This document shows positions 1,553 through 35,928 of a stretch of DNA of 40,744 nucleotides, piece after piece. The DNA is from Candidatus Aenigmatarchaeota archaeon (lineage in GTDB: Archaea > Aenigmatarchaeota > Aenigmatarchaeia > CG10238-14): assembly GCA_017610225.1 (NCBI GenBank), contig JAFCCM010000011.1, forward strand, positions 1-40,744, read 5' to 3'. The notes under the pieces were generated by a model. It was not told where the DNA came from and did not search any database. It saw only the letters and a program-made list of their open reading frames with translations. How positions within the stretch are numbered: position 1 is the first letter of the stretch; every line of letters starts with the position of its first letter. The position numbers and the translations under genes are program-made.

Positions 1553-2791
1553 TTACCCCCAATAGTTATAAATTATAAATAACTTTTCTTTTGCTCTTGT
1601 AGCAGCTGTATATAACCATCTTGCGTAATCTTGATCTGTTTGATATTGATTTCGCTGTTCGAAAAGTACTACCTTTTGCCATTCTGATCCTTGACTCTTA
1701 TGAACTGTGCAGGCATAACCAAAATCAAACATATCAATATCCTTTTGATCATGCCTTTTCATATCTTTTGCAAATGTTCTTTTAAAATCAATTTCCATTT
1801 CTTCATTATAATTATCTTTTCCAAAAGAACTTCTAATTGCAAGACTTGAATGTAAATCATCATCAAATCCATCCATTCTCATTGTTAGATCATAAAGCTT
1901 TTTACTTACTGGATAAACCCAAACTAAAGTACCTAATTGACCATTTTTAATTCCAGAGTTATGATTATTTTTTAAACATATAACTCTTTCATCAGGATAA
2001 GGATTATGTAATGTATAACCCAATTTATCTCGAATTTTCTTATTTAAACCAACACGAGTCTTATTAAATCCACATAATTGAATAATATTTTTTTTCTCTT
2101 CTGACCAATTAATTTTATCATATATCTTTTTAGTTTGTGGGTTATTCCAATCTAATTTAAAAACATGTTCATTAAAAATACCTGGTTTAATATAACCATA
2201 TCTTCTAATGTCTATAGTTAGTTTAATAATAGGGTTATCAAGTGCTTGTCTATGTATTTCATTTAATTTAAGATCAGCATTTTCTAATAAATCAAATTTA
2301 GGACCAATAGGAGGTAATTGTCCATGATCACCACATACAATTATTGGAATTCCATAATGAGTTAAATCCATCCATAATTCTTTAGTGATCATAGATCCTT
2401 CATCAACAATAATTAAATCTATCTCTAACTCTTTTTTTAAATCCCATCCAACGAGAATTTTTTTACCATTTTTTCTTTTATATATTGGAGTATACAATAA
2501 ACCATGAATAGTTCCAATATAATCATAATCTCTTGCTGAATGGTTTTCTTGAAGTTTATTTTCTAATACAAAAGCAGCTTTTCCAGTAAATGCGCAAAAA
2601 GCTATCTTATGTGCTCCTTGTTTACCAAGATCATGATTAAATCGAATACTAGAAGCAATTTCAGTCATTAATGTAGTTTTACCCGTACCGGCATATCCCA
2701 CAACTTTTATAACATTATCTCTATTAGTTGCATATCTATACCATTCCAATACTTCGCTTTGAATCATTTGCTGCTCTTCTGTTAAATCCAT
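1553..2791 (-). CDS. Dda-like SF1B DNA helicase
   Basis: This 412-residue protein carries the helicase motifs in order. They are Walker A GYAGTGKT (residues 32-39), Walker B IIVDEGSM, motif III CGDHGQLPPIG, the UvrD/RecD-type motif CTVHKSQGSEW and motif VI LYTAATRAKEKL. Length and motif spacing match phage T4 Dda (439 aa), a 5'-3' helicase acting in origin initiation and in clearing bound proteins ahead of the fork. GTGAGGAATAAAT gives a modest ribosome site. It is the largest gene of the leftward operon and begins about 570 bases from the first rightward gene, next to the putative origin. The helicase call is firm; the Dda subfamily is inferred from order and length. Confidence 0.9.
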   Translation of the reverse strand: MDLTEEQQMIQSEVLEWYRYATNRDNVIKVVGYAGTGKTTLMTEIASSIRFNHDLGKQGAHKIAFCAFTGKAAFVLENKLQENHSARDYDYIGTIHGLLYTPIYKRKNGKKILVGWDLKKELEIDLIIVDEGSMITKELWMDLTHYGIPIIVCGDHGQLPPIGPKFDLLENADLKLNEIHRQALDNPIIKLTIDIRRYGYIKPGIFNEHVFKLDWNNPQTKKIYDKINWSEEKKNIIQLCGFNKTRVGLNKKIRDKLGYTLHNPYPDERVICLKNNHNSGIKNGQLGTLVWVYPVSKKLYDLTMRMDGFDDDLHSSLAIRSSFGKDNYNEEMEIDFKRTFAKDMKRHDQKDIDMFDFGYACTVHKSQGSEWQKVVLFEQRNQYQTDQDYARWLYTAATRAKEKLFIIYNYWG

Positions 2792-2866
2792 ATTTATTCC
2801 TCACCCCCAAGTCTATAAAAAATATTTGATTTTCGATTATATCGAAGATTTCCTTCTTTAATACAA

Positions 2867-3024
2867 TTAATATGTACCCGGAAGCACCTCTGTATTTAAA
2901 TCTTTTTGGGTGCCATCAATTGAAGAATTTGTCGAATTATAAAAATACTAATTCTGCTATAATAAATATTATAGCAGAAATACCTATCCAGCTTAATTTA
3001 TTAACATTAATGATTTTTAAATCT
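2867..3024 (-). pseudogene. Possible decayed small membrane protein
   Basis: Leftward of the 59-aa membrane gene, one frame reads VNKLSWIGISAIIFIIAELV, a membrane-helix-like stretch, and then stops. The next frame continues NSTNSSIDGTQKDLNTEV and ends at 2867. A one-base change in the T run near 2940 would join them. No ATG fits the first frame, although GGAG lies upstream. It could be a broken gene for a short anchored periplasmic protein, or chance in AT-rich DNA. The hairpin at 2952-2979 overlaps it. Confidence 0.25.
2952..2979. repeat. Perfect 12-bp inverted repeat, 4-base loop
   Basis: TTCTGCTATAAT and its exact reverse complement ATTATAGCAGAA flank the loop AAAT. It lies between the helicase start and the 59-aa leftward gene. 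It could be a transcript-processing hairpin, a weak terminator for the leftward unit (ATTAGTATTTTT follows on that strand) or a protein-binding palindrome at the putative origin. Confidence 0.55.
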
Positions 3025-3025
3025 C

Positions 3026-3205
3026 CTATTTAAAAATCATTAATCCAATTCGAACTAAACCATATATCCAAGGAATAATTAAAATAAAAACTATCCCTAT
3101 AAAAATACAAAATATTGATGCCGTGATTTTTAAATCATCCAATCCTGCTGGAGATAGATCAATTTTATTTTGCCATCCAAATAACTTTAAAACTTTTCCG
3201 ACCAT
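3026..3205 (-). CDS. Small membrane protein (59 aa)
   Basis: The reading frame runs from ATG at 3205 to TAG at 3026, with AAAGGAGTTTATC before the start. The first 30 residues are polar (MVGKVLKLFGWQNKIDLSPA at the N-terminus). A hydrophobic segment (SIFCIFIGIVFILIIPWIYG) then forms one membrane helix and a short tail ends the protein. It is the first gene of the leftward unit, so its promoter must lie in 3206-3359. The function is unknown. Confidence 0.65.
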   Translation of the reverse strand: MVGKVLKLFGWQNKIDLSPAGLDDLKITASIFCIFIGIVFILIIPWIYGLVRIGLMIFK

Positions 3206-3359
3206 GATAAACTCCTTTTTTTATTTGTTCTTATTTTACAAATTAGTTTCTTTATATAGTTATTAATATATATAGAATCAAATTTTATTATTTGGGAAAC
3301 TTTTTTTATTTTATGTAACATATGTTAAAATAGAAATAGTGATTTAAAAGGAGAATTAA
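3206..3359. promoter_or_regulatory. Divergent intergenic region with likely promoters in both directions
   Basis: Transcription diverges here: leftward from 3205 and rightward from 3360. The DNA is almost pure A+T, with TATATAG and ATATATATAG tracts near 3255-3275. AACATATGTTAAAATAG (about 3316-3332) resembles the recurrent phage motif GAACATATTATAAATA and lies about 28 bases before the rightward ATG. The rightward gene has AAAGGAG as its ribosome site. Exact promoter positions are inferred. Confidence 0.45.
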
Positions 3360-4400
3360 ATGATAATATTGAGTGAGGTGGGAATTAATAGACATTTATT
3401 TCCTATGATTCCAAAACGGGGCAAAATCCCTAAAAATGGAAGATCTATTGAAAATATTATTGAAAGAAGAAATAGACAAGGTAAAGTAATATTTAAAGCT
3501 ACTTCAGATTCTAAATGGAATAAAAGATGTTATATATTTATGGATTGGTTATCATCTAAAATTAGATCTAATTTTAATTTAAAAATATTAACAGTAAATC
3601 CAGGATTAGGAATAATTAAAAGATTAGATGATCCAAGACTACAAGATATGTATTTATTAAATAGACATGATCTAATTCATGAAATAATTATAGGTGTAAA
3701 TAACCCTTTATCAGCACAAGGATCTTTGGGTAATGTATATAGATATAGTTTAGCAGTTTTATATAAAGAAGTTGCTAAAGATTTAAAATGGCAAAAAAAT
3801 GATGTTAAAATGATTATTAAAATAATTAGCAATTGTAAATTTATAACTGAATATAAATTTCAAACTATTAAACCAAATACTGCTAAAACTGGCGAATTTG
3901 TACATTCGTATAAATCATATGATTTTGAACCAATATTTAATGTTGAAATTAATGATAAAGAAGCTGAAATTAATTTTAATACTGGCTATAGTATTTGTTT
4001 TTTACATAATATTTTTACTGGGGCATATGAAACAATTAATGATAATGATGATTTATATAGACTATCTGAAAATACTCAATTTCTATATAGACAAATATTT
4101 TTTACATACGGAGTCTTACCTAAAGTTTATTTAAGAATGGATCGTGCTTTTAGATTTTTAAATATAACTACTGAAAATTCAACAAATAAAAAAAAATTAT
4201 TTAAAAAAATTATAAACGAACTTTCAACGGTAAATAGGATCCAATTAAAAAGAAAAGTTAATGATGAATGTTATGAATTTTCACTTGGTATAAAGAAAAA
4301 AGAGAATAAAATCATACCATTAACATCAGAACTTGAAAGACAACTACAGAAATTTCAAAATAATTGGGATTCATATAAGGAAGGAAATGGAATATTTTAG
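3360..4400 (+). CDS. Putative replication initiator (Rep-like) protein
   Basis: This 346-residue protein is basic overall, and I do not recognise a family by sequence. Residues about 230-330 look like a winged-helix DNA-binding unit: an RQIFFTYG helix, a loop, RMDRAFRFLNI, then a basic helix KKKLFKKIINELSTV. The strongest clue is position. Its last codon and TAG stop lie inside the first of five 18-bp direct repeats, at the point where gene orientation switches and beside a Dda-like helicase. Iteron-plus-Rep is the standard plasmid origin layout, so an initiator that binds its own downstream iterons is inferred. A repressor autoregulating this region is the main alternative. The ribosome site is AAAAGGAGAATTAA. 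Confidence 0.5.
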   Translation: MIILSEVGINRHLFPMIPKRGKIPKNGRSIENIIERRNRQGKVIFKATSDSKWNKRCYIFMDWLSSKIRSNFNLKILTVNPGLGIIKRLDDPRLQDMYLLNRHDLIHEIIIGVNNPLSAQGSLGNVYRYSLAVLYKEVAKDLKWQKNDVKMIIKIISNCKFITEYKFQTIKPNTAKTGEFVHSYKSYDFEPIFNVEINDKEAEINFNTGYSICFLHNIFTGAYETINDNDDLYRLSENTQFLYRQIFFTYGVLPKVYLRMDRAFRFLNITTENSTNKKKLFKKIINELSTVNRIQLKRKVNDECYEFSLGIKKKENKIIPLTSELERQLQKFQNNWDSYKEGNGIF

Positions 4401-4515
4401 GAACTAATTAAAGATTTTTTAGGAACTAATTAAAGACAATTTTAATTTTAGGAACTAATTAAACAATTTTAGGAACTAATTAAAGATATGAGCTACTTTT
4501 TAGGAACTAATTAAA
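4395..4515 (+). repeat. Five iteron-like direct repeats TTTTAGGAACTAATTAAA
   Basis: Exact copies of the 18-bp unit start at 4395, 4417, 4446, 4467 and 4498. Start-to-start spacings are 22, 29, 21 and 31 bp, close to two or three helical turns, so sites bound by one protein would roughly face the same side of the DNA. Copy 1 includes the stop codon of the preceding gene. Identical copies in the same orientation with phased spacing are typical of replication-initiator iterons. They could instead be operators. Confidence 0.85.
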
Positions 4516-4672
4516 ATGGTATTTGAAATTAAATAATAAAATCAATAAGTTAAAACATAAAATTGTGTTTAAGACCTTATTATTAAGACCTTAATAAGAG
4601 AATACATAAAATATGACATTAAATTAAGGTTAAAATCAATATTTAGATTATTAATGAAAAAGGAGTTAAGCT
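4516..4672. other. AT-rich stretch after the iterons, with an 11-bp direct repeat
   Basis: No gene is supported here. The stretch is nearly all A+T, as expected of a DNA-unwinding element beside iterons. TTAAGACCTTA occurs twice, at 4569-4579 and 4583-4593, 14 bp apart. No DnaA-box consensus (TTATCCACA) is seen. The 3' end carries AAAAAGGAG, the ribosome site of the 26-codon ORF at 4673. Confidence 0.45.
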
Positions 4673-4753
4673 ATGTACACAGTCACCCCACGAGTACTTA
4701 CGCCTGATGGCGTGTTACTAGTTCTTTCAAGAGTGGCTAAGTCTATTAAATAA
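4673..4753 (+). CDS. Possible 26-aa leader peptide or microprotein
   Basis: ATG at 4673 follows AAAAAGGAGTTAAG at good spacing and reads MYTVTPRVLTPDGVLLVLSR, ending VAKSIK before TAA. Base composition is clearly more G+C-rich than the surroundings, which supports selection on the sequence. It may be a leader controlling the large gene at 4821 or an independent microprotein. No homologue is known to me. Confidence 0.4.
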   Translation: MYTVTPRVLTPDGVLLVLSRVAKSIK

Positions 4754-4820
4754 AATCAGGTAACATATAAAAGAGTAAATAGAGCATTTAGAATAACTAT
4801 TAAGAAAGGAAATTTCAAAA

Positions 4821-6911
4821 ATGAATTATGAAGATTTAAAATGGATTAACCAGTCTTTGTATTCGTACAAAGATAAACAATTTGAAACAAACGGATACCT
4901 GGATATTTCAGTGAGTATTAATACTACAGATGATATAAATTTTAGTCAACCTAAACTAATTTTTAATTTAGATAATCAAGGACAAAAAAGAAATGTTAGA
5001 TTATCTTACCCTAATGTGGTAGATTTATTAAAAGCATTTAATGAAATGGCTAAAGGGCTAAATGAAGTATTTCAAAGACAAGAGACAGGCGCTATAACAA
5101 GAAGATATAATAACAACAAGGATTTTGTATTTGAATTTCAAATGTATAATGGAGAACCAGTAGTAAGGTTATTTATTAGTCACAATGAGTCAGATAAAGG
5201 TAAAATAATATTTCCATTTTATCCTGAATATGAAACTATAGGTCAGCTATTAAGATTATTTAAAGAAAACTTTATTAAATTTTCAATAGATTTACCTTCT
5301 AGATATCTTGCTAGTATTAGTGTTAATAGACTCTTAGAAACAACTAATTTACTTAAAACATTACCTAGTCAATTAGTTCCTATTCGACCAGAGAGTTATC
5401 CTTCACCGCATCCAGTATATGACCTAGATAGAAGAGTAGAGATAGAACCATCAATCAACGCAGCTAGCTCCGAAAATATAAAGTACACAGGTACGCATTG
5501 TGCTATTTGTGGAGAAGATCAATTTGATACCAGAAGTGGAATAACTTGTAAAAATGGACATGGTGGAGCAGATAGTTTAGATGATGATGAAGGTAATGAA
5601 CCACCTAATAATAGTGAGTTCGAACAATTTGCTGCTGAGGAAGAACCTAAAGTTAGAATTCCTGAGTTAGAAAGTGATGCATTAGAACCAAAGGATGCCA
5701 TCTCACAAGAGTATAAGAGTCCATTTATAGAGCATACATTGAAGAATAATATCCTTAATTTGCAAGAAATGTTATACGCATTATTCACTAATAATAACCC
5801 TTTAAGAACCATTATGAACACAATATATAATGGTGAAGGTTATACACTTTTACCTGGTATAAGTGTGAATGATTTAAAGTCTGTAATGTATATATCTAAT
5901 CTTTATTTTAAAATGAACTTCCAAAGTTATATCCAAAATCAAACTGGATTTCCAAGTGCTATACCTGTTGTTAAATATAATGGAAGTAGTGATGATAGAA
6001 CGACTATTGAATTAAGTTATGACTTAATGATGATTAGTGCATATCTAAAATTATATAGAAATAGAATGGAAGCTATTAACTCTGACCCTTACTCTAATGG
6101 AGCATTAGTACATTTCTCTTTTAGATGTTTCCTTGATGTAGCAACTTATAGTTATTTAAGCGGAAAGAATTCAGAAGCTATTAAGAATACAATAGTATCA
6201 AGATTTAAATATTTTAGAGAAACTGGTTTCTTTGATAATTTTGATAAAAATTTAGAAGGTGAAAATCAGAAAGTTATTTATGAACAAGAGATTGGAGAAT
6301 TTATTGATAAAGTATTTGATAATGTAGTAGAATCAGATAATATTAACATAAGACATTTTAATGCTCATGATACTGGTTCTGTAAAATTACCACCTGAGAA
6401 TAATTTTAATTTAGAACAAATAACAAATGACATTGTGAAATATGAGATTAAAACATTATTTGGACAAAGAATTGAAGATTTAACAAATGATGAAGAAATT
6501 ATTTTGTTATTTAATAAAAAATTAAAGAAAAAATATAAACCAACTGATCATAGACCAGACCCTAGAAAACATGAAACTCATGTTTTAAGGTTTGTTAAAT
6601 TAAAAGCTAATGAGTTACAAGAATCTATTAGAGATAATTTTATAGAATATATTAAAGAAGTTAGTGATGGTGATGTTTATGATTATTTTAATGATAACTT
6701 TAAATTAGAAGAGTTACCAGAAATAATTTTACAAGCTGTTTATACTTGGGAAAAACATTCTCAAACTAAAACAAAATATACAGATTATGTAGTAGATATA
6801 GAAAATTGTATTAGTAAAGATCTAATTATTTCAAAATTAAAAACATTAGATAATGAAGAAGTAGAAGAAGCTGGTGATTGGTCTAACGCATTTGAAGATA
6901 TTGAATTATAA
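4821..6911 (+). CDS. Large uncharacterised phage protein with central zinc motif (696 aa)
   Basis: Not recognised as a family. Residues 1-170 are beta-rich with regularly spaced strands (KLIFNLDNQ, FVFEFQMYN, VVRLFISHN) and then helices. A zinc motif follows with C227, C230, C243 and H247. An acidic, Pro-rich, probably disordered linker spans about 250-300. The rest, to 696, is helical and charged, with an acidic tail. It is the first long gene after the putative origin. That position and the strand-rich N-terminal domain allow a DNA-replication or ssDNA-binding role, but a virion-assembly role is equally possible. AAGAAAGGAAATTTC precedes the ATG. Confidence 0.8.
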   Translation: MNYEDLKWINQSLYSYKDKQFETNGYLDISVSINTTDDINFSQPKLIFNLDNQGQKRNVRLSYPNVVDLLKAFNEMAKGLNEVFQRQETGAITRRYNNNKDFVFEFQMYNGEPVVRLFISHNESDKGKIIFPFYPEYETIGQLLRLFKENFIKFSIDLPSRYLASISVNRLLETTNLLKTLPSQLVPIRPESYPSPHPVYDLDRRVEIEPSINAASSENIKYTGTHCAICGEDQFDTRSGITCKNGHGGADSLDDDEGNEPPNNSEFEQFAAEEEPKVRIPELESDALEPKDAISQEYKSPFIEHTLKNNILNLQEMLYALFTNNNPLRTIMNTIYNGEGYTLLPGISVNDLKSVMYISNLYFKMNFQSYIQNQTGFPSAIPVVKYNGSSDDRTTIELSYDLMMISAYLKLYRNRMEAINSDPYSNGALVHFSFRCFLDVATYSYLSGKNSEAIKNTIVSRFKYFRETGFFDNFDKNLEGENQKVIYEQEIGEFIDKVFDNVVESDNINIRHFNAHDTGSVKLPPENNFNLEQITNDIVKYEIKTLFGQRIEDLTNDEEIILLFNKKLKKKYKPTDHRPDPRKHETHVLRFVKLKANELQESIRDNFIEYIKEVSDGDVYDYFNDNFKLEELPEIILQAVYTWEKHSQTKTKYTDYVVDIENCISKDLIISKLKTLDNEEVEEAGDWSNAFEDIEL

Positions 6912-7567: not shown

Positions 7568-8737
7568 ATGAATAATAAACATCACCTTTGTGATTATGGT
7601 TGTAGGAAACCAGCGAAGTATCAATTCAAAAATGGTAGGTGGTGTTGTAGTAAAAGTCATCAACAATGTTCTGTAAATAGAAAAAAAACAAGTAATTCAT
7701 TAAATGGACATATAGTTTCTAAAAATACATGTAAAAAAATTAGTAAATCAAATACAGGAAAAAAACATTCTAAAGAAACTAAAGAAAAAATATCAAATTC
7801 TTTAAAAGGATTTAAACATTCTAAAGAAACTAAACAAAAAATGTCTGAAAAAATTCCTTGGAATAAAGGTAAGATAAATATTTATTCCAAAGAAACATTA
7901 CATAAAATGAGTGAAAATAATAGAGGCAGAACTCCTTGGAATAAAAATATAAATAATTGTTTTTCAACTTCTTCAATAAAAAAAATGAAGCAATCTTTAA
8001 AAGGGAGAATACCTTGGAATAAAGGTAAAATAAATTGTTTTAAACATAATGAATATACTAAAAAGAAAATGTCAGAATCTCATAAAGGTTTAAATACATG
8101 GAGTAAGGGAACTAAACTTTCTAAAAAAACTAAAAAGAAAATGAGAGGTAAAACTCCATGGAATAAAGGTATTAGATTATCAATTCTTGAAATACAAACT
8201 AGATATCCAACTTTTTCTAAAATTGAAGAAATGTTATATACAAAAAATAAAGATATACAAGTACATTGTAAAAACCATAAATGTAAAAATTCAAGAGAAA
8301 AAGGTGGTTGGTTTACTCCAACTCATAATCAATATCATGATAGAATAAATGCTTTAGAAAAAGATGATGGAAATCAAGCTGCTTATTTTTATTGTTGTGA
8401 TGAATGTAAAATAGAATGCCCTTTATATAATAAAAAAGTTTCTACTCTAATAAAAAATGATAAAATTAGAGCAGGACATATTAAAGAAGAACTATACACA
8501 TTTGAAGAATATCAAACTTTTAGACAACAAGTTTTAAATCGAGAAGATGAAATTTGTGAATACTGTGGAGAAAAAGCTAATCATGTGCATCACTCTCGTC
8601 CACAGAAATTAGAACCAGGTTTTATACTTGATCCTGATTTTGGAGTAGCTTGTTGTGAAAGTTGTCATTATAAATATGGTCATAAAACCGGAACAGAATG
8701 TAGTACTGGAAATTTAGCAAATATGATATGTAGATAG
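7568..8737 (+). CDS. HNH homing endonuclease with NUMOD3 repeats
   Basis: The 389 residues divide into three parts. An N-terminal Cys module (CDYGCRKPAKYQFKNGRWCC, then SKSHQQC) is likely a zinc finger. Residues about 50-210 hold repeated NUMOD3-type DNA-binding motifs (GKKHSKETKEKISNSLKG and similar, about six copies). The C-terminal HNH nuclease has CEYCGEKANHVHHSRPQKLE and CCESCHYKYGH, with the HH pair and four Cys. It shares both terminal modules with the genes at 18609 and 25040 and the remnant at 37436, differing mainly in NUMOD3 number. It is free-standing between two conserved phage genes. Expected activity is site-specific DNA cleavage that spreads its own gene. Confidence 0.9.
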   Translation: MNNKHHLCDYGCRKPAKYQFKNGRWCCSKSHQQCSVNRKKTSNSLNGHIVSKNTCKKISKSNTGKKHSKETKEKISNSLKGFKHSKETKQKMSEKIPWNKGKINIYSKETLHKMSENNRGRTPWNKNINNCFSTSSIKKMKQSLKGRIPWNKGKINCFKHNEYTKKKMSESHKGLNTWSKGTKLSKKTKKKMRGKTPWNKGIRLSILEIQTRYPTFSKIEEMLYTKNKDIQVHCKNHKCKNSREKGGWFTPTHNQYHDRINALEKDDGNQAAYFYCCDECKIECPLYNKKVSTLIKNDKIRAGHIKEELYTFEEYQTFRQQVLNREDEICEYCGEKANHVHHSRPQKLEPGFILDPDFGVACCESCHYKYGHKTGTECSTGNLANMICR

Positions 8738-8747
8738 GAGATAAAAT

Positions 8748-10238
8748 ATGCCAACAGAAACAGATCAATATCATCAACAATTTATACATAATGTATTTGG
8801 TTGTTTTATAGAAAATACTTTAGAATATTTTGCTGATTATTTATATCCAAGATTCCAACATCAAGTTGTTGGCACGTATGATAAAGCTGTAGAATATATA
8901 ACTAAACAAGAACATTATGGTAGAGAGGGAGATAAACCAAATCTTCCTGCACTTATTCTTAACCCTACTGGTGATTTTGATTTAGATGATGCTCAATCTC
9001 TTGCAAAACAATTATGGAGATTTCCTCATTTAGCACCTCATCTAGCACAACAATTATTTATGCCAATATATCAAGATAATAATGTTGAAGTTAATGTTGC
9101 ATTTACTAGATTAAAAGGTGAGATAGAATTATTAGCTTTATTACCTTCTTTTTATGAATATTTTGATTTAAAAATATTCATAATCCAGCATTTTGGCGGA
9201 CAAGGAAGACCAATTGAACCAATGTATTTTAATGATTTTATTATTTTACCAGATGAATTAGTTAATTATCAATATTCAAATGATGCAACTGGTGAATCAT
9301 ATAAATTAGATTGGAAGAACAATGGAGCTTATGAATTTTTAGTAGAAACAACTAATAAAAATGAACTAGTAGTTCCAGGAAAATTAAAACCTAGATATAC
9401 TTTAAGAGGAATGTCAGATGGATCAACTAGATATGGTGGAATGGATGATGTTGCTAATTGGAGATTAAGTTGTATTGTTGAATATGAAATTGAGATTCCT
9501 ACGTTTCTTCTTCTTAAAACGGATTATATATTAGAAAATATAGATTTTAATTTAAGGTTTGGTTCTGCATATTCAAAATATGCAGATTATAATTTACCAG
9601 TAAATGAAATTACTATACAAAGACATTGGGATTCTGGAATGCAGGAATCCACTAATACTATAATAAATACAACGGTTGAAGATAATCCAGATGTAATGAA
9701 TGATCTAAATTCTAATACAAATACTAGTAGTATTGATGATCCTTCTATTGAGGGTAGTGGTGAAACTAATTATGACTATCAAGGATTACCACCAGAATCT
9801 TTATGTGATACAGAAAAAATAAGTAGAGAATTAATATTTAAAACTAGATATTTCCATGAAGTAACTCAAGAACAATCTGATTCAACATCAGATGTGATTA
9901 TAATATTACCAGAACTTATTTTTGATCCAACATTAATAAAAGTACAAAGTAAATATGGTTTAATGGATTATGGAGATGATTATTTATTAGAAAATGGCGG
10001 ACAGGATTTAAAAATTATAGTTGATAATGTAAATCTTAAAAAAGGTGATTTCATTGAAATATTTATATATGAAACTCCTTATGCACAACCTAATCCGTTA
10101 TTCTTATGTGCTGGTTCTTCTGTAATATCAACAACTGATGAAACACCTGAACGAGCTTCTATTGAAGTTAAATGGGCATTAACTAGTAATGCAATTTGTA
10201 AAACAAACGTATATGTACCTATGATTTTAGTGGAGTAA
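8748..10238 (+). CDS. Probable virion structural protein (496 aa)
   Basis: There is no signal peptide, membrane helix or catalytic motif. The N-terminal 170 residues mix helices and strands (WRFPHLAPHLAQQLFMPIYQ). Next come a beta-rich middle, a low-complexity Asn/Ser/Thr/Asp linker near residues 300-345 and a beta-rich C-terminal domain (DVIIILPELIFDP, FIEIFIYETPY). Long beta-rich proteins with a flexible linker are usual in tail, neck or baseplate components, so a structural role is inferred. AGGAGATAAAAT precedes the ATG. The next gene starts five bases after its stop. Confidence 0.65.
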   Translation: MPTETDQYHQQFIHNVFGCFIENTLEYFADYLYPRFQHQVVGTYDKAVEYITKQEHYGREGDKPNLPALILNPTGDFDLDDAQSLAKQLWRFPHLAPHLAQQLFMPIYQDNNVEVNVAFTRLKGEIELLALLPSFYEYFDLKIFIIQHFGGQGRPIEPMYFNDFIILPDELVNYQYSNDATGESYKLDWKNNGAYEFLVETTNKNELVVPGKLKPRYTLRGMSDGSTRYGGMDDVANWRLSCIVEYEIEIPTFLLLKTDYILENIDFNLRFGSAYSKYADYNLPVNEITIQRHWDSGMQESTNTIINTTVEDNPDVMNDLNSNTNTSSIDDPSIEGSGETNYDYQGLPPESLCDTEKISRELIFKTRYFHEVTQEQSDSTSDVIIILPELIFDPTLIKVQSKYGLMDYGDDYLLENGGQDLKIIVDNVNLKKGDFIEIFIYETPYAQPNPLFLCAGSSVISTTDETPERASIEVKWALTSNAICKTNVYVPMILVE

Positions 10239-11930: not shown

Positions 11931-13232
11931 GTGAAACAATTTAATTTTGAACAAAAATTAGTAAACAACAAACCAATATCAAAACATGATATAAAAAAGT
12001 TAGGTTTATCTAATGTATTTAATAGTATAGTAAATACATTAGATGAACTTAGAAATAAAAAATTTAATATGGTTATAGTAGATTGTGTTAATAATGCTCC
12101 ATTTACACAAGATAAGTTTAAAAAACAAATATTAAAAAAGAAACAAAAATATATAATGAGTTTTAATGTATATCAACAATTATGGTATGATATATATAGA
12201 AAGAAAAAAATTCTAAAACCTGCTGGTCCAAAATTTAATAACCTCTATAGACCATATATAGGACAAGATCTTACAAATAAAACTCTATTAGTGTCCCGGA
12301 CAGGTGGTTTAGGTGACCTTTTATTTATTCAACCAAATCTTATTTATTTAAAAGAAAAATATCCAACATGTACTATTAAATTTGCCTGTGGCCCACAATA
12401 TCATGATATGATTAAGTATTGGAATTGTGTTGATAAGGTATTAGATTTACCCCATACTTTTAATCATTTTCTACAAGCTGATTACCATGCTTATTTTGAA
12501 GGTGTTATAGAAAGGTGTTTAGAAGCTCATACTAAAAATGCTTATAATTTATTTTCAAGATGGTTAGGTTTATATTTGCCTGATGATAAATTAATTCCTG
12601 TTCAAACACCAACCCCATTAAAGACAGCAATATGTAAAAGATTTTTAAAAGATCATAATATTGAAAAAAACAAATTATTATTATTTCAAATAAAAGCTTC
12701 TTCACCTATTAGAACTCCAAGACCAGGCATTTGGAAAGATTTAATGTTAAAATTAATTGATAAAGGATATCAAATTGTTATAACTGATAGTCCTCTCTCT
12801 TCTCCAAAGATAGAGTTATTTAGACAATTAGTTGGATCTAATCAGGTTTATAATTTTGCAACATTCTCTGAAACAATAGATTATACTATTGCTATGGCTG
12901 CTCTTGCTAAATGTTGTGTATCACCAGATTCATCATTAATACACATTTCAACAAGTGTTGGTACACCAGTTTTTGGTTTATATGGACCATTTCCAGGTGA
13001 AATTAGATTAACAACTTATGATAAAGTTGATTGGATAAATGCTAAAAAAGAATGTGCACCTTGCTTTCAACATGGTTCAAACCCATGTAAACACTCAACT
13101 AATGGGCATTCTAATTGTTATGATAATATAGATATTAATGAATGTGTAACTAAAATAGAGAAATTAATAAAAGAAAGTATACATCAAGATATGGACAAAG
13201 AAGCATTAATTAAACATTGTAAAATAGTTTAG
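11931..13232 (+). CDS. GT9-family (ADP-heptose:LPS heptosyltransferase-like) glycosyltransferase
   Basis: The GTG start at 11931 follows AAAAAAGGTGAATAT. The 433 residues begin with a basic N-terminal extension of about 115 residues of unknown role. The GT9 core follows: LLVSRTGGLGDLLFIQPNL (the GGLGD loop contacting the acceptor or nucleotide) and LKEKYPTCTIKFACG. Near the C-terminus lies the family signature DSSLIHISTSVGTPVFGLYG. The closing Cys cluster (ECAPCF, PCKH, NCYD, NEC) also matches GT9 relatives. Family members transfer heptose from ADP-heptose to lipid A core sugars. With HldE at 32636 this implies phage-directed heptose transfer, perhaps to host surface or virion. Confidence 0.85.
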   Translation: MKQFNFEQKLVNNKPISKHDIKKLGLSNVFNSIVNTLDELRNKKFNMVIVDCVNNAPFTQDKFKKQILKKKQKYIMSFNVYQQLWYDIYRKKKILKPAGPKFNNLYRPYIGQDLTNKTLLVSRTGGLGDLLFIQPNLIYLKEKYPTCTIKFACGPQYHDMIKYWNCVDKVLDLPHTFNHFLQADYHAYFEGVIERCLEAHTKNAYNLFSRWLGLYLPDDKLIPVQTPTPLKTAICKRFLKDHNIEKNKLLLFQIKASSPIRTPRPGIWKDLMLKLIDKGYQIVITDSPLSSPKIELFRQLVGSNQVYNFATFSETIDYTIAMAALAKCCVSPDSSLIHISTSVGTPVFGLYGPFPGEIRLTTYDKVDWINAKKECAPCFQHGSNPCKHSTNGHSNCYDNIDINECVTKIEKLIKESIHQDMDKEALIKHCKIV

Positions 13233-16712: not shown

Positions 16713-17264
16713 ATGTATGATTTAGTAATTTTATATAGCGGAGGTAGTGACTCTCGTATTATGTTAGAAATGGCATTGGAACTTGATCTTAAACCTTATT
16801 GTATTATGATTGATTATGGTCAATTAAATATAGAAGAATTGAAGTTTGCAAAGAATCATTTAGAAAAAGCAGGAATTGATAGTCAAACTGTAAAAATTAG
16901 TGGTTTGGATATTAATAGTGGTTTAACTGGTGATGGTGTTAAAAATAAATTTGAAAAAGTTCATTCCCATCATGTTCCTGGGAGAAATACAATGTTTCTC
17001 AGTATAGCATTTAGTATAGCAGAAAGTAAAAATATAGCTATAATTTGGATAGGGTCAGATTGGTCAGATGTTTTAAATTTATTTCCTGATTGTTGCCAAG
17101 AATATATTGTATCAATGAATAATGTTTTTAAAGTAGCTGGTCCAAAACCAATTGAATTACAGGCGCCTCTATCAGGTATTTCAAAAGAAAATATTTTGAA
17201 AATGTTAAAGAAAAAAGGAATTAAAGAAAATGAAATTTATTCCGGGTATGGAGAATTTTCATAA
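16713..17264 (+). CDS. queC-like: QueC-like 7-cyano-7-deazaguanine (preQ0) synthase, short form
   Basis: The PP-loop SGGSDS lies at residues 9-14, followed by IDYGQL, HHVPGRNTMFLSIAFSIAE (about 86-104) and IGSDWSDVLNLFPDC with a following EYIVSMN. These match QueC, which converts 7-carboxy-7-deazaguanine to preQ0 with ATP and ammonia. At 183 residues it is shorter than E. coli QueC (231). It ends soon after APLSGISKENIL, without the C-terminal CxxCxxC zinc site. Activity may therefore differ. PreQ0 feeds queuosine in tRNA or deazaguanine in phage DNA; no QueD, QueE, TGT or DpdA is in the window. The phage tRNA-Asp(GUC) would be a queuosine substrate. Confidence 0.8.
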   Translation: MYDLVILYSGGSDSRIMLEMALELDLKPYCIMIDYGQLNIEELKFAKNHLEKAGIDSQTVKISGLDINSGLTGDGVKNKFEKVHSHHVPGRNTMFLSIAFSIAESKNIAIIWIGSDWSDVLNLFPDCCQEYIVSMNNVFKVAGPKPIELQAPLSGISKENILKMLKKKGIKENEIYSGYGEFS

Positions 17265-18078: not shown

Positions 18079-18607
18079 AAATTGGGATGAATATTATTTA
18101 GGTTTATGTGTAGCTGTTGGTTCTAATTCTAAATGCCATTCAAGACAAATTGGAGCAATCTTAGTTAGAGATAATATTGTTATTTCTACTGGTTACAATG
18201 GACCAGCGAGAGGAATTCCAGAGTGTGTTGAAAGATTATACAATGATCCTATTATGATGTCAGAATGGAACCATAGAGGTATAACTGGTAGTTTGGTTGC
18301 TGAGGCTGTTGAGAAAAAAATATGTCCAAGAAAAGTTTTAGGATTTTCATCTGGAGAAGGTCTTGAGTATTGTTGCGCAGTTCACGCTGAAAAAAATTGT
18401 ATAGTAGCTGCTGCAAGATTAGGTATTGCAACTAAAGGATCTACTCTTTATATGAATGCTAATATATCTCCGTGTACACAATGCTACTCAGCATGTATTA
18501 ATGCTGGTATAAAGGAAATTGTTTTAATTAAAAATAATATATATGATCCATCATTAGAATGGTGTATGAAATATTCTGATATACTAATAAGGGAATTTGA
18601 TATTTAA
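18065..18607 (+). CDS. dCMP deaminase
   Basis: The zinc-dependent deaminase signature is complete: HAEKN with H107 and E109, then PCTQC with C137 and C140. GAILVRDNIVISTGYNGPAR is the conserved N-terminal strand-loop. The length (180 aa) is close to T4 Cd (193 aa). The enzyme makes dUMP for thymidylate synthesis. It overlaps the P-loop kinase and precedes a homing endonuclease by one base, then other nucleotide-pool enzymes, so the cassette balances dNTPs for an AT-rich genome. The insert between the N-terminal strand and HAE, with Cys and His, is typical of phage dCMP deaminases. Confidence 0.9.
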   Translation: MKKNKNWDEYYLGLCVAVGSNSKCHSRQIGAILVRDNIVISTGYNGPARGIPECVERLYNDPIMMSEWNHRGITGSLVAEAVEKKICPRKVLGFSSGEGLEYCCAVHAEKNCIVAAARLGIATKGSTLYMNANISPCTQCYSACINAGIKEIVLIKNNIYDPSLEWCMKYSDILIREFDI

Positions 18608-18608
18608 A

Positions 18609-19562
18609 ATGTTATGTTATTATGGATGCGGACAAAAAGCTATTTACCAATTTAAGAATGGTAAGTGGTGTTGTAGTAAAGTTCCACAACAATGTCCTTA
18701 TCTTTGTAAAAAAAATAGTGAACGACAAAAAAATAACCCTATTGTACCATATAATAAAGGTAAGATTGGTTTATATAAACATTCTAAAATAACCAAGAAA
18801 AAAATGAGTGAAAACAGATCTGGTAAAAAACATCCACTATATGGTAAACATCATTCAAAAGAAACTAAGAAAAAAATTGGATTAGGAAATAAAGGTAAAA
18901 TTATTTCTAAAGAAACAAGAGAAAAACTAAGAATATCTAATACTGGTAAAAAACATTCAATAAAAACAATTCAAAATATAATAAAATGTAATAAAAAAAG
19001 AAAAGGAACTCGTTATTTAACTATTTCTAAAATAAAAGAAAGATATCCTACATTTTCTAAAATTGAAGAAATGAGATATAACCCTAATAAACCAGGTGAA
19101 AAAGAAATACAAGTTCATTGTAAAAATCATTTATGTAAAAATTCAAAAGAACAAAGTGGTTGGTTTGATGTCGGAAAATGGCAACTATCTGATAGAATAA
19201 GAGCTTTAGAATCTATTAACGGAACAGATGGATCATATTTTTATTGTTGTGTTGAATGTAAACAGGAGTGTCCATTATATAGTTTAAGAAGTGATCTTTT
19301 TATCCACAAAGAAAAACTTTATACATATAAAGAATATCAAACCTGGAGAACAACAGTTTTAGAACGAGTTGATTATCTTTGTGAATATTGTGAAGAACCT
19401 GCAACAGATGTTCATCATTCCCGTCCTCAAAAACTTGAACCAGGTTTTGTTTTAGATCCTGATTTCGGAGTAGCTTGTTGTGAAAGTTGTCACTACAAAT
19501 ACGGACATAAAACTGGAACAGAATGTTCTACAGGAAACTTAGCTAATAAGGAGTGTTTATGA
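18609..19562 (+). CDS. HNH homing endonuclease with NUMOD3 repeats
   Basis: I take ATG 18609 (MLCYYGCGQKAIYQFKNGKW) by analogy with the sister gene at 25040. A TTG at 18597 has a closer ribosome site (AAGGGAAT) and cannot be excluded. The N-terminal Cys module, three or four NUMOD3 motifs (GKKHSIKTIQNIIKC and similar) and a C-terminal HNH with CEYCEEPATDVHHSRPQKLE and CCESCHYKYGH are all present. Near-identical C-termini at 7568 and 25040 show recent spread by duplication. It splits the nucleotide cassette between dCMP deaminase and the dATP/dGTP enzyme without disrupting either. Confidence 0.9.
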   Translation: MLCYYGCGQKAIYQFKNGKWCCSKVPQQCPYLCKKNSERQKNNPIVPYNKGKIGLYKHSKITKKKMSENRSGKKHPLYGKHHSKETKKKIGLGNKGKIISKETREKLRISNTGKKHSIKTIQNIIKCNKKRKGTRYLTISKIKERYPTFSKIEEMRYNPNKPGEKEIQVHCKNHLCKNSKEQSGWFDVGKWQLSDRIRALESINGTDGSYFYCCVECKQECPLYSLRSDLFIHKEKLYTYKEYQTWRTTVLERVDYLCEYCEEPATDVHHSRPQKLEPGFVLDPDFGVACCESCHYKYGHKTGTECSTGNLANKECL

Positions 19563-20707: not shown

Positions 20708-22030
20708 ATGGATCATTTAGATATTGTACGAAGATTATGTGACAACAACTGTGATACTTACATTGTAGGTGGTGGAATCAGAGATATGTTATTAGGTAAT
20801 GATCCTGATGATTATGATGTTGTCACTGAGGCTACTCCGGATAAAGTTTTGGAGTTGTTTAAAGATTGTAATGTTAAGCAGGTTGGTAAAAGTTTTGGAG
20901 TTATCTTAGTTGAAGGTTATGAAGTTGCGACCTTTAGATATGATAGATATAAAGACTCCAAATGTATTGTATCTTTTGCAGATACTATTCATGAAGATTT
21001 AAATCGAAGAGATTTGACAGTTAATGCCATGGCATTTTGTGAATTAACTGGAGATTTAATTGATGATCATGGTGGAAGATCGGATCTTGAAAAAAGGATT
21101 ATTAAATTTGTTGGTGATCCTTATGAACGAATTACAGAAGATCCATGCAGAATTCTTAGAGCTTGTAGGTTTTTAGCTAAGATTGATGGAACTTTTGATC
21201 TTGATACTTTTCAAGCTTTAAATAGATCAGTAGTTTGGTATGAAAGATTAAAATATGTTGCTCCAGAAAGAATTAGATTAGAAATTCTTAAAGCAATGAA
21301 GACTCCAAATGCTTCTATATTTTTTGAAGCGCTTCATAGTATTGGAGCACTTGAACATATTTTTCCAAGTTTAGATGTTTGTTGGAAGCATGAACATGGA
21401 TCTCATCATAAAGAAAATATATTTGAACATTGTATGTATGCCGGAGATGCAATTACTACTGATGATCCTATTCTTAAATTAACTGGATATCTTCATGATG
21501 TTGGTAAACCACCTTCTTTTAAAGACGGTAAATTTATAATGCATGAAGTTGTCGGAAGGGATTTAATCCAAGATGAATTAAGAAAACTTACTTTTTCATC
21601 AGATGAAATCTATAGAATTTGTGGTTTGGTTAGATTACATATGAATTCTATTCAAAAAATGACTCCAAAAGCAATTAGAAAGTTGCTTAAAAAGTTTGAT
21701 GAAAAAGGAGTTATCATTGATGACTTTATGGTCTTAAGAAAAGCTGATAGAAAAGCAAACATTGCAAGAACAGATTTCACAGAAGAAGAATGGATTGCAA
21801 TGGAAAATCAATTAAGACAAGAATTTGTTGAAGAAAGACCTTTTAATATTCACAGTCTCGCATTTAAAGGAGGAGATATTATTAAAGAGTTTAGTTTAGA
21901 ACCAGGGCCAATTATTGGAAAACTTCAAAGATTGATGTTAGATCATATTATTGATGTTGGTCAAGAGTATAATACTTATGAGGATTTAGAAGTTTTTGTA
22001 GATAGAGCTTTGCAACTTAAACTTGTTTAA
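20708..22030 (+). CDS. cca: CCA-adding enzyme / tRNA nucleotidyltransferase with HD domain
   Basis: At 440 residues this is a full-length class II enzyme. IVGGGIRDMLLGNDPDDYDV gives the GGGxRD loop (21-26) and metal-binding D35 and D37. RRDLTVNAMAF and the ERITEDPCRILRACRF segment bind and select CTP and ATP. The HD phosphohydrolase domain begins near residue 230 (YLHDVGKPPSF). It adds or repairs the 3' CCA of tRNAs. The phage tRNAs already encode CCA, so repair of damaged or nuclease-trimmed tRNA ends is the more likely use. It is followed by a strong terminator and a nucleotidyltransferase of another family. Confidence 0.92.
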   Translation: MDHLDIVRRLCDNNCDTYIVGGGIRDMLLGNDPDDYDVVTEATPDKVLELFKDCNVKQVGKSFGVILVEGYEVATFRYDRYKDSKCIVSFADTIHEDLNRRDLTVNAMAFCELTGDLIDDHGGRSDLEKRIIKFVGDPYERITEDPCRILRACRFLAKIDGTFDLDTFQALNRSVVWYERLKYVAPERIRLEILKAMKTPNASIFFEALHSIGALEHIFPSLDVCWKHEHGSHHKENIFEHCMYAGDAITTDDPILKLTGYLHDVGKPPSFKDGKFIMHEVVGRDLIQDELRKLTFSSDEIYRICGLVRLHMNSIQKMTPKAIRKLLKKFDEKGVIIDDFMVLRKADRKANIARTDFTEEEWIAMENQLRQEFVEERPFNIHSLAFKGGDIIKEFSLEPGPIIGKLQRLMLDHIIDVGQEYNTYEDLEVFVDRALQLKLV

Positions 22031-23938: not shown

Positions 23939-24830
23939 ATGAATAAAGAAAATTTACCATTATGTAAATGTGGGTGTGGAAAAAAAGTTACTAAAAAAAC
24001 TAATAAATATCTATGGGGGTCATAATAGAACTCCATTTACAAAAGAAACACGACAAAAATTAAGAGATGCAAATCTTGGCATTACTTTAGAAATGCGTCA
24101 TGGAAAAGAAAAATCAGATGAAATAAAAAAGAAAATTGGTGAAACAAGTAAAGGCAGAATACCATGGTCAAAAGGAAAAACTTGGGAAGAAACTTATGGA
24201 AAAGAAAAAGCTGATGAATTAAGAAAAACTATTGGCGATAAACATAAAATAAATCCTATTTTTAAAAATAGAACTGGAAAAAATAATCCATATTATAAAG
24301 GTCATAAAGATTCTTTATTTTCTCATTTTTCTTCTAAAATAAAAGAAGATGAAAATAGAGAAAATAAAAATGGTAAAATTGAAGTTAAATGTAGTTATTG
24401 TGGAAAATGGTTTGTTCCATCTCCTATTGAATTAGATAATAGAATTGGTGCGGTTAAAAGAAATAATGGCATTGGTGGAAATTTTTATTGCTCCAATGAA
24501 TGTAAAGAATTATGTCCAGATTTCTATCAAGTTTTATGGCCAAAAAATTATAAACCATATGATAGTATTAATAACGTAATTGAGGTTGATCCAAATCTAA
24601 GAAAATTAGTTTTTGAAAGAGATGATTGGAAATGTCAAAAATGTAATTCAACAACTAGTTTGGAATGTCATCATATTGATCCAGTAGCATTAGAACCATT
24701 ATTTGCTAATGATATAGATTCATGCATTACTTTTTGTAAAGAGTGTCATAAATGGACTCATATGAATATAGATGGTTGTGGTTATAATCAAATTAGAGAA
24801 GAAAAACAAAAAAGAAATCAAGGATGTTAA
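23939..24830 (+). pseudogene. HNH homing endonuclease with a single-base frameshift
   Basis: AAGGAGTGTTAGT precedes ATG 23939. Frame 1 reads MNKENLPLCKCGCGKKVTKK and then TNKYLWGS before a stop. The remaining protein is in the next frame (GHNRTPFTKETRQKLRDANL onward), joined if one G of the GGGGG run at 24014-24018 is removed. The downstream part has NUMOD-like motifs (KGRIPWSKGKTWEETYGKEK) and a C-terminal HNH with CQKCNSTTSLECHHIDPVAL and FCKECHKWTH. Either the gene is inactivated, the run is a sequencing error, or ribosomes slip there. Its Cys module and HNH differ from the 7568/18609/25040 group. Confidence 0.8.
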
Positions 24831-25039: not shown

Positions 25040-25792
25040 ATGTTATGTGAGTATGGATGTGGACAAAAAGCTACTTATCAATTTAAGAATGGTAAATGGT
25101 GTTGTAGCAAAAGTCATAATAAATGCCCTTTTATGATAAATATACAATCTTTAAATAAAATTGGAAAAAATAATCCATTTTATAATAAAAAACATTCAAT
25201 AAAAAATAAAGAAAATTATCATAAAAATATGTTAGGAAATAATCATAAAAAATTAATAACTATTTCTGAAATTAAAAAGAAATATCCAACATTTGCTAAA
25301 GTTGAAGAAATGAGATATAACCCTGATATTCAAGAAGAAATACAAGTACGTTGTAAAAATCACTTATGTAAAAACTCTAAAGAACAAGGTGGTTGGTTTA
25401 CCCCAACATATTATCAACGGTATGAAAGAATAAATGATATAGAACATATTGATGGTAATGGTGGTTCTTATATGTATTGTTGTGATGAATGTAAACAAGA
25501 ATGTCCTTTATTTAATTTAAGAGGCGACCCTAATAAAATTAAAAAAGAACAATTATATACATCAGAGGAATATCAAACGTTTAGACAACAAGTTTTAAAA
25601 CGAGAAGCTTATATTTGTGAATATTGTGAACAACGAGCTACACATGTACATCATTCACGCCCTCAGAAATTAGAACCAGGTTTTGTACTTGATCCTGATT
25701 TCGGAGTAGCTTGTTGTGAAAGTTGTCATTATAAATATGGGCATAAAGATGAATGTTCTACAGGAAATTTAGCAAACATAGTATGTGTTTAA
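25040..25792 (+). CDS. HNH homing endonuclease, short form
   Basis: AAAGGAGTGACATT precedes the ATG. The N-terminal module (MLCEYGCGQKATYQFKNGKW, then CCSK and CP) and the C-terminal HNH (CEYCEQRATHVHHSRPQKLE; CCESCHYKYGH) match the genes at 7568 and 18609. The NUMOD3 region between them shrinks to about one degenerate motif (NNPFYNKKHSIKNKENYHKN), giving 250 residues instead of 318-389. Loss of DNA-recognition repeats may have changed target specificity. The remnant at 37436 is most like this copy. Confidence 0.88.
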   Translation: MLCEYGCGQKATYQFKNGKWCCSKSHNKCPFMINIQSLNKIGKNNPFYNKKHSIKNKENYHKNMLGNNHKKLITISEIKKKYPTFAKVEEMRYNPDIQEEIQVRCKNHLCKNSKEQGGWFTPTYYQRYERINDIEHIDGNGGSYMYCCDECKQECPLFNLRGDPNKIKKEQLYTSEEYQTFRQQVLKREAYICEYCEQRATHVHHSRPQKLEPGFVLDPDFGVACCESCHYKYGHKDECSTGNLANIVCV

Positions 25793-31096: not shown

Positions 31097-31470
31097 GGGG
31101 GTGCTAGGTTTCGACAGAGACAGGAAGTTTATATTGCGTTTCGTGAATGATTAAACCACGTTAAAAATAATCATATAAATACAACTACAGACAATTTCGC
31201 AGATGATTACGACCTAACAATAGCAGCGTAATCCGTGCTACTTAGTTATATCTCTGGATTAAGATAGGGCGTCGACTTAAGAGATGTAGAATTATAATAC
31301 TAAGTTTAATAAACTGGGGGTTTATAATTTGAAATATATCCTAAAATTATATTCTGATAATATCCTAGATACATTGGTAGTCAGTCTTAAAATTGTAATA
31401 TGTATCTATAAACGTAGACGTATATTTGGAACGTACTTTGGACGTGATTTCAATATCACCACCTCCACCA
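31097..31470 (+). ncRNA. ssrA: Phage-encoded tmRNA
   Basis: The 5' end GGGGGTGCTAGGTTTCGACA has the conserved tmRNA D-loop-like GGTTTCGACAG. It pairs with CACCTCC at the 3' end, which continues ACCA (31467-31470). A T-arm-like GTGATTTCAATATCAC precedes it. Inside, one frame reads TDNFADDYDLTIAA and stops at TAA (31230-31232), a plausible proteolysis tag ending in IAA. TAATCC and GGATTA form the helix usually found around the tag stop codon. The resume codon is uncertain, and the upstream frame continues with NT codons. tmRNA with SmpB frees stalled ribosomes; no smpB is in the window, so host SmpB is presumably used. Confidence 0.9.
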
Positions 31471-32296: not shown

Positions 32297-32639
32297 ATGT
32301 ATTGTATGTAGAACTGAATTTGATAATGATGAACTTATAGAAAACAAAGGTTGTCCTGTATGTGGTTATCAGGGACTTACCATGTTGACTAATGGAGATA
32401 TCAATGTAAATATTAATTGGTTTGAACTTAGACTTATATGTATGTGGGCTGAATCATTAGTATTGCAAGTGGGTGATACTCATAGTTTAAATGCTTTTTA
32501 TGCAGTAGCTAATGAATTGAAAAAACAAATTCCAGATGCAGGAAAGATAACAATGTTTAACAGAGCACCAGAAACCAATAACGGATCAGACTTTTATTTA
32601 GATGATTCAAATGCACCTGATGGGACACTATACAATTGA
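32283..32639 (+). CDS. Zinc-ribbon-containing hypothetical protein (118 aa)
   Basis: I choose ATG 32283 (MKPIRCIVCRTEFDNDELIE) because AAAGGATAATC precedes it; a frame from 32256 is open but has no ribosome site. CIVC and CPVCGYQG give an N-terminal zinc ribbon. The rest is helical (NWFELRLICMWAESLVLQVG), then an acidic tail. Its stop overlaps the first bases of the HldE gene, so it may belong to the same operon, though nothing links it to sugars. Confidence 0.6.
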   Translation: MKPIRCIVCRTEFDNDELIENKGCPVCGYQGLTMLTNGDINVNINWFELRLICMWAESLVLQVGDTHSLNAFYAVANELKKQIPDAGKITMFNRAPETNNGSDFYLDDSNAPDGTLYN

Positions 32640-35292: not shown

Positions 35293-35509
35293 TAGAGAAT
35301 CTTTAGAATCCTTACCTCCTCTAAACCCAGGAGAATTAAATTATAAAATAACAAAAACGTGTATCGAATATTTAGAGGCTGAAGGTAAATGCTATAAAAC
35401 GATAAATGAAATTATTGGCGCGTTAGAATGTGCTAAAATTGAATTTTATCGTAGAGTTGCAGTTCCTTATGAGAAAACAAAAATTGAAGAAAATGGCGAC
35501 GTATACTAA
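35270..35509 (+). CDS. Conserved phage protein, DUF6899-like (79 aa)
   Basis: TTAGGAGGTTTAA precedes the [16 protein letters not shown] and the C-terminal half ([36 protein letters not shown]) match a very widely conserved small phage family (N.VIGVLECAKLEFYRR...PYE..K...NGDVY). Its function is unknown. It overlaps the sugar cassette by 23 bases and the downstream GGQ gene by one (TAATG), so all are transcribed together. The extreme conservation of the tail suggests an essential interaction. Confidence 0.85.
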
Positions 35510-35928
35510 TGAGAAAACATTTATTTTCAGTAACAAAAAAAGATTTTGAAGTCCAAACCTTTAGAGCAGGTGGTAAAGGTGGTCAACATCAAAATAAAAC
35601 AGATTCAGCGGTTCGTATAATTCATAGAGAATCAGGCGGTGTTGGACTAAGCCGCAATGATAGAAGCCAATATAGAAATAAAAAATTAGCATTACAAAGA
35701 CTTGCTAAATCTAAAAAATTTAAATTATGGATTCAAAGAAAAGTACATGAAATTGAAGTAGGAGAGACTATTGAGACACAAGTAGAACAAACTATGAAAC
35801 CAAAAAATTTAAAAATTGAATTTAGAGAAAATAATAAATGGATAGTAGAGGAAGCAGCAGTTGAGGGTAATGTTATTGCTGATGAACAGATTGATGAAGA
35901 ATGCAGTGATACAGTAAATTTGAGATAA
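35509..35928 (+). CDS. GGQ-domain release-factor-like protein (139 aa)
   Basis: [20 protein letters not shown] places the catalytic GGQ at residues 24-26, the motif that triggers peptidyl-tRNA hydrolysis on the ribosome. [20 protein letters not shown] follows the class I release factor/PrfH pattern (ERSQ..NK..AL). There is no stop-codon-recognition domain. At 139 residues with a charged tail it has the size of ArfB or PrfH-type rescue factors rather than RF1/RF2. It probably releases peptides from stalled ribosomes or damaged ones. With the tmRNA 4 kb upstream, the phage appears to carry two separate rescue activities. A strong terminator follows. Confidence 0.85.

Follow-up and report, generated by a model that had tools for sequence, protein, structure and literature searches.

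Does a large phage whose head genes are of T4 type carry a replication origin of the plasmid type, complete with its own initiator? The question is raised by a locus in the 40,744-nucleotide contig JAFCCM010000011.1 (the window, which covers only 40.7 kb of its own phage), where a gene for a 346-amino-acid (346-aa) protein, here called rep, ends inside the first of five identical direct repeats, or iterons. Phage T4, the model among large phages, initiates through R-loops and recombination, and no role has been proven for the iterons of its oriE (PMC3016281; literature is cited by PubMed Central number, from extracts of each paper). We consider it probable that the present locus is a large-phage replication origin, at which a tandem winged-helix Rep would bind the five phased repeats and melt an adjoining AT-rich stretch, the replisome would load and forks would enter both arms. 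The analysis draws on one related phage, IMGVR_UViG_3300035390_000014 (G001 below), a 202,719-bp IMG/VR contig and the sole relative with readable DNA.

Iterons as such are already known from phages and their satellites (lambda O, P1, the PLE satellites and the T4 oriE repeats). What is new is the combination of an initiator family without sequence kin in the searched libraries, a single array at the end of the gene, a large phage with a T4-type head and an iteron specificity that has diverged between two relatives; open-licence PMC text yielded nothing on a jumbo phage with iterons or an initiator protein, from which we claim no absence from print. In this locus a phage group with a T4-type head shows an apparently complete initiator-plus-iteron origin, and an initiator and its binding sites appear to have changed together; the locus offers a concrete protein, a 121-bp gel-shift target and a testable origin coordinate for read-depth mapping. 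If confirmed, it would extend protein-initiated, plasmid-type origins to large phages and supply annotation with a new Rep family.

The iteron array at the end of rep

The central features of the locus, in window coordinates, are:

3360..4400, plus strand: rep, a predicted 346-aa tandem winged-helix replication initiator without a sequence family (open reading frame (ORF) and predicted fold)
4395..4412, plus strand: iteron 1, holding the rep stop codon (exact repeat)
4417..4434, plus strand: iteron 2 (exact repeat)
4446..4463, plus strand: iteron 3 (exact repeat)
4467..4484, plus strand: iteron 4 (exact repeat)
4498..4515, plus strand: iteron 5 (exact repeat)
4511..4660, no strand: candidate DNA unwinding element (DUE), 84% AT, at the 99.6th percentile of duplex weakness among the window's 150-bp stretches
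4569..4596, plus strand: two tandem 14-bp repeats, TTAAGACCTTA(T/A)TA, in the AT-rich stretch (from sequence)
4619..4820, plus strand: conserved non-coding stretch, single copy in both phages (82% identical to the relative in 4619-4664, 79% in 4665-4820)

A preliminary description, made from the sequence of the window, had reported five identical 18-bp direct repeats phased at 21-31 bp, the first containing the stop codon of the 346-aa gene, and both statements are borne out. All five are exact copies of TTTTAGGAACTAATTAAA, with start-to-start distances of 22, 29, 21 and 31 bp, the spacings of 21 and 31 bp being near two and three helical turns; the TAG stop codon of rep (4398-4400) sits in iteron 1, whose overlap with the ORF amounts to 6 bp only. 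No sixth match to TTTTAGGAACTAATTAAA occurs anywhere in the window with up to three mismatches allowed, and at that tolerance the AT-rich shuffles averaged 0.76 matches, with 1 of 100 reaching five. Similarly, 14-mers of three or more letters reached at most two copies within 150 bp in 40 first-order Markov resamplings, against five in the real window. The core, AGGAACTAAT, has one additional, inverted copy at 5372, within the 696-aa gene downstream, and with one mismatch is found at five other places in the window. Upstream of rep, a search for inverted half-iterons as a candidate operator returned one 10-bp core with one mismatch, at 3242, and none in the corresponding region of G001.

A predicted initiator without sequence kin

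The Rep-like nature proposed for the 346-aa protein agrees with its predicted structure, a tandem winged-helix fold as in plasmid and RctB initiators. Initiators form the top rows of the fold comparison, with matches that span domains, and the predicted structure has the domain 2-3 fold of RctB, the initiator of Vibrio chromosome II; the comparison list did not include lambda O.

The sequence itself has no counterpart of this kind. Against Pfam-A, Rep_3 (PF01051) included, none of the 16 Rep family members scored a match at E<=1, a profile search of solved chains (RctB among them) with the family returned nothing at E<=10, and tblastn of Rep found nothing in phages at E<=0.01 or in plasmids at E<=10. 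Scans of genome contigs likewise showed no relative of Rep or of its 207-aa neighbour. By sequence, then, the predicted initiator is a family without kin in the libraries searched. An hhalign comparison of the Rep family with seven plasmid Reps (Prob 99.2, score 141) was discarded as uninformative, because column-shuffled and reversed decoys score almost as high (Prob 99.0-99.1, score 130-136).

A weak duplex beside the array

The very AT-rich DNA with an extra 11-bp repeat that had been reported downstream of the array is recovered, TTAAGACCTTA occurring at 4569 and again at 4583. As judged from sequence and nearest-neighbour energy only, the duplex beside the array lies at the 99.6th percentile of weakness in the window and the 99.0th in G001, and in both phages alike the strongest weak-duplex stretch near the array starts at the array's end. 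By analogy, the 14-bp repeats may be the counterpart of the 13-mers known in plasmid DUEs (PMC4980987). The 11-bp repeats are not kept as such in G001, which has one copy with two mismatches.

The conserved non-coding stretch that follows (its counterpart in the relative is L001 11240-11446) has no Rfam match and an RNA fold no better than shuffles; a covarying hairpin first seen in it by eye was dropped on the latter ground. A 26-codon ORF that it contains in the window is, by eye, not preserved in L001.

A shared layout with a differing core in a related phage

Viral scans with Rep, the Dda-like helicase, the 696-aa and the 207-aa proteins as queries led only to G001, apart from a helicase in L028 with 32% identity, and a megablast search of window positions 1-25000 against phages gave no match. 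Forty reciprocal best pairs join the window and G001 (median identity 70.2%), among them relatives of Rep, of the 696-aa neighbour and of the 207-aa protein. The immediate neighbours of the locus in the window are:

1553..2791, minus strand: Dda-like superfamily 1 helicase, 412 aa, divergent neighbour (PHROG_325, E 1.3e-84; 81% identical in the relative)
3026..3205, minus strand: hydrophobic ORF of 59 aa, lying between helicase and rep (the relative has a 59-aa counterpart in the same place)
4821..6911, plus strand: 696-aa gene, next after the proposed origin region (its counterpart in the relative is 73% identical)

Transcription diverges just upstream of rep, and the adjacent helicase is Dda-like, both as first described. 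The order is the same in G001, where rep (76365-77387, plus strand) follows a Dda-like helicase on the minus strand and precedes the 696-aa homologue. Phased repeats, whose conservation beside a homologue had been proposed as a check, stand in the same place next to a weak-duplex stretch: the array at 77383-77509 contains TTACAATATCGTTAAA four times in direct and once in inverted orientation, and one other match to it, with two mismatches, exists in the whole of G001. The inverted copy and three of the four direct copies read TTTTACAATATCGTTAAA, and the third direct copy is off by one base of a T-run. The units of the two phages share their ends (TTTTA and TTAAA) as well as two inner positions, and differ at six core positions. 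The direct copies of G001 are spaced at 22, 21 and 31 bp, and the first unit holds the rep stop codon in both phages, though it is inverted in G001.

G001 has T4-type portal and Gp23 capsid genes, genes for a family A DNA polymerase, a clamp loader, a topoisomerase II, a UvsX-like protein and a DnaB_C protein, and a gene for an RNA polymerase beta-subunit-like protein. The Rep_3 profile (PF01051) matches nothing in G001. TerL was not found with phrog_2 or PF17289, so that G001 may be incomplete or its terminase divergent.

Divergence of rep and the iterons

At the nucleotide level, the helicase genes of the two phages are 80.5% identical. Identity falls to 67% across 2830-3359, 63% over rep, 58% for the repeats and 59% for the AT-rich stretch and then recovers: the two non-coding stretches that follow reach 82% and 79%, the 696-aa gene 79.5% and the 207-aa gene 87.5%. 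The Rep protein ranks third from the bottom in identity among the 40 pairs, and no window protein of more than 223 aa ranks lower. From these comparisons the Rep-iteron pair seems to have changed faster than most surrounding genes. One homologue, P0002, looks mosaic by sequence: in the first 22 alignment columns it matches P0007 and P0008 at 20 of 22 positions and P0001 at 16, and beyond them it is 46%, 45% and 90% identical to P0007, P0008 and P0001, respectively (5 of the 16 family members were examined, and the first 22 columns are generally more conserved than the remainder).

The pattern of divergence and P0002 fit an exchange, or fast co-divergence, of the initiator and its sites. On the joint divergence and P0002 we build a tentative suggestion, which we hold to be rather doubtful, that rep, iterons and AT-rich stretch form an exchangeable cassette of origin specificity, by which co-infecting relatives with different Rep/iteron specificities might avoid mutual titration of initiators and a common target for nucleases that cut origins or satellites that borrow them. 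If true, this would amount to plasmid-style incompatibility operating between large phages with T4-lineage capsids, and would provide a model for the unexplained iterons of T4 oriE.

Proposed mechanism, skew and alternative explanations

In the proposed mechanism, Rep would bind the five helically phased 18-bp repeats that start at its own stop codon, and bound Rep would melt the AT-rich stretch at 4516-4660. The phage replisome would then load at the opened stretch, with a helicase placed onto single strand by analogy with iteron plasmids (PMC4980987), the candidates being the DnaB_C gene product of G001 and the Dda-like helicase next door in both phages, and forks would leave bidirectionally into the two divergent gene arms. 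With the rep stop codon located there, a Rep-bound array might also influence the 3' end of the rep transcript. As to the coupling of replication to rep expression proposed in the preliminary description, the sequences show a stop codon within a repeat unit in both phages, and the coupling itself is hypothetical.

A turning point of cumulative GC skew near 3.2-4.6 kb had been proposed as a check. The minimum of the window does fall at 3239, and that of G001 at 76,234, 131 bp before rep; with the G001 maximum at 176,444, the arms would measure 100,210 and 102,509 bp if the genome is circular, as is assumed here for a contig without an exact end repeat. Two observations weigh against reading an origin from these positions: gene strand in G001 splits almost perfectly at the turning points, and coding-strand skew at fourfold sites is -0.10 in the right arm and +0.03 in the left. 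As the strand split coincides with the turning points and the fourfold sites carry little of it, the skew is consistent with an origin but is not independent evidence, and we set it aside. A weak hint of an arm effect comes from third-position skew in G001, which is 0.000 in counter-oriented genes (189 G, 189 C; genes few in number, chosen afterwards and mostly at 195-202 kb) and 0.33 and 0.27 in co-oriented ones. Cumulative skew patterns of the kind described above are often seen in huge phages, about 30% of them bidirectional (PMC7162821). The proposal of an origin with its own initiator thus stands on fold, repeats and weak duplex, with no independent support from skew. Given the predicted fold, the repeats beside the homologue and the weak duplex, none of the three outcomes named beforehand as contrary to it (an unrelated structure, no skew change, no conservation of the repeats) was obtained.

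The further proposal of a plasmid-like state or Rep-regulated copy control finds no backing, profile searches of the 202-kb G001 having matched neither ParA (PF13614), ParB (PF02195) nor tyrosine integrase (PF00589); in a possibly incomplete contig this argues against such a state, not decisively. Rep might by analogy also serve a persistent state, because phage RepA serves plasmid prophages in P1 and in mycobacteriophage Miko, where removal of repA left lytic properties apparently unaltered (PMC7157519).

It is unlikely, in our judgement, that the array serves copy control or autoregulation, as P1 incA does, with the true origin elsewhere. The geometry is the same, for the annotation of P1 places nine 19-bp RepA iterons behind the phage-borne repA, the closest one abutting the 3' end of the gene. 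P1 is a temperate plasmid prophage annotated with a second array and origin upstream (additional iterons at oriR), Dam sites, a DnaA site and parA/parB; there is no second array in the window or in G001, and the weak-duplex stretch adjoins the array in both.

That Rep is a tandem winged-helix transcription regulator acting on repeated operators, and the locus a genetic switch at divergent promoters, seems quite improbable: the gene does stand at the point of divergence, and likeness of fold does not prove function, but the repeats lie downstream of the gene and not in the promoter region, the top fold rows are initiators matched across domains, and the arrangement of repeats and weak duplex is kept. 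Iterated sites beside a small DNA-binding protein mark centromeres too, and a partition site with Rep as its adaptor is nevertheless very improbable, neither ParA nor ParB having matched in G001 in a search that did not extend to tubulin- or actin-type partners. Finally, the repeats almost certainly do not act in the rep mRNA, as a transcription terminator or another RNA element at its 3' end, for although the inverted first copy in G001 can pair with a direct copy (array fold z -4.37), the window array folds no better than shuffles (z 0.20) and RNA structure is therefore not common to both phages.

Comparison with known initiators

The origin proposed here resembles those of the Rep_3 plasmids (F RepE/ori2, R6K pi/gamma, pPS10), which likewise have a tandem winged-helix initiator (here predicted), phased iterons of the 18-22 bp class near rep and an AT-rich stretch with short repeats beside them. 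It differs in lacking a Pfam Rep_3 match, in having no DnaA box (TTATCCACA, up to one mismatch) in 2500-5000 and in its carrier, a large phage which, judging from G001, has its own polymerase, clamp loader, topoisomerase and DnaB_C gene. DnaA boxes are common, though not universal, in Rep_3 origins. RctB, like Rep in its domain 2-3 fold, is 7% identical to it, carries further domains and is not a phage protein.

Among phages, lambda O is also an initiator with iterons by an AT-rich tract that overlap its own gene (PMC7466680), the lambda iterons lying mid-gene and not, as here, with only the stop codon inside a repeat. T4 has the portal and Gp23 types in common with G001, and at its oriE, the origin at which loss of Dda is felt most, direct repeats stand at even intervals close to a strand switch (PMC3016281); those repeats are 12 nt long, their link to oriE activity is unproven, and no comparable initiator is described in the extracts of that paper. 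The PLE satellite of phage ICP1 pairs a Rep with iterons in a phage infection setting, and an iteron change there escapes an origin-cutting nuclease, but its Rep is of the RepA_N fold family, its iterons are semi-palindromic and about 30 bp long, and it is a satellite rather than a phage (PMC7145576, PMC8263062).

A generic repeat pattern matched seven stretches in the viral scan: one in G001, two in a single contig with 32-bp-spaced repeats, one in L025, and those in L023, L024 and L026, for which the motif alone was looked at. L025 (IMG/VR) has three 18-bp repeats, TTTTAATAGGTTGTTAAA, at 5345-5408 with 23-bp spacing, beside a 324-aa ORF (5583-6557), and is possibly another phage iteron origin. 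In L020, an AT-rich IMG/VR phage contig, tandem 32-bp repeat units occupy a gene-poor stretch at 8343-8424.

Other features of the window

Between helicase and rep, L001 has an intact 204-aa ORF (9008-9622), lytic-transglycosylase-like by eye, of whose start the window seemingly keeps only a broken remnant at about 2820-3010 on the minus strand. Four related ORFs of homing-endonuclease type lie at 7568-8737, 18597-19562, 23970-24830 and 25040-25792, the first with NUMOD3 repeats and an HNH match, the other three assigned through similarity to the same G001 ORFs.

A transfer-messenger RNA (tmRNA; Rfam RF00023, 95.6 bits) at 31097-31470, not reported by ARAGORN, and a 139-aa protein that has an RF-1 domain (PF00472) and a GGQ motif, at 35509-35928, are possibly two ribosome-rescue tools in one phage. 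An HldE-like protein joining PfkB and cytidylyltransferase (32636-34036) and a family 9 glycosyltransferase (heptosyltransferase; 11931-13232), both with close counterparts in G001, could form a phage-borne ADP-heptose pathway. The window also encodes a CCA-adding-enzyme-like protein (PolyA_pol and HD; 20708-22030), QueC (16713-17264) and six transfer RNA genes.
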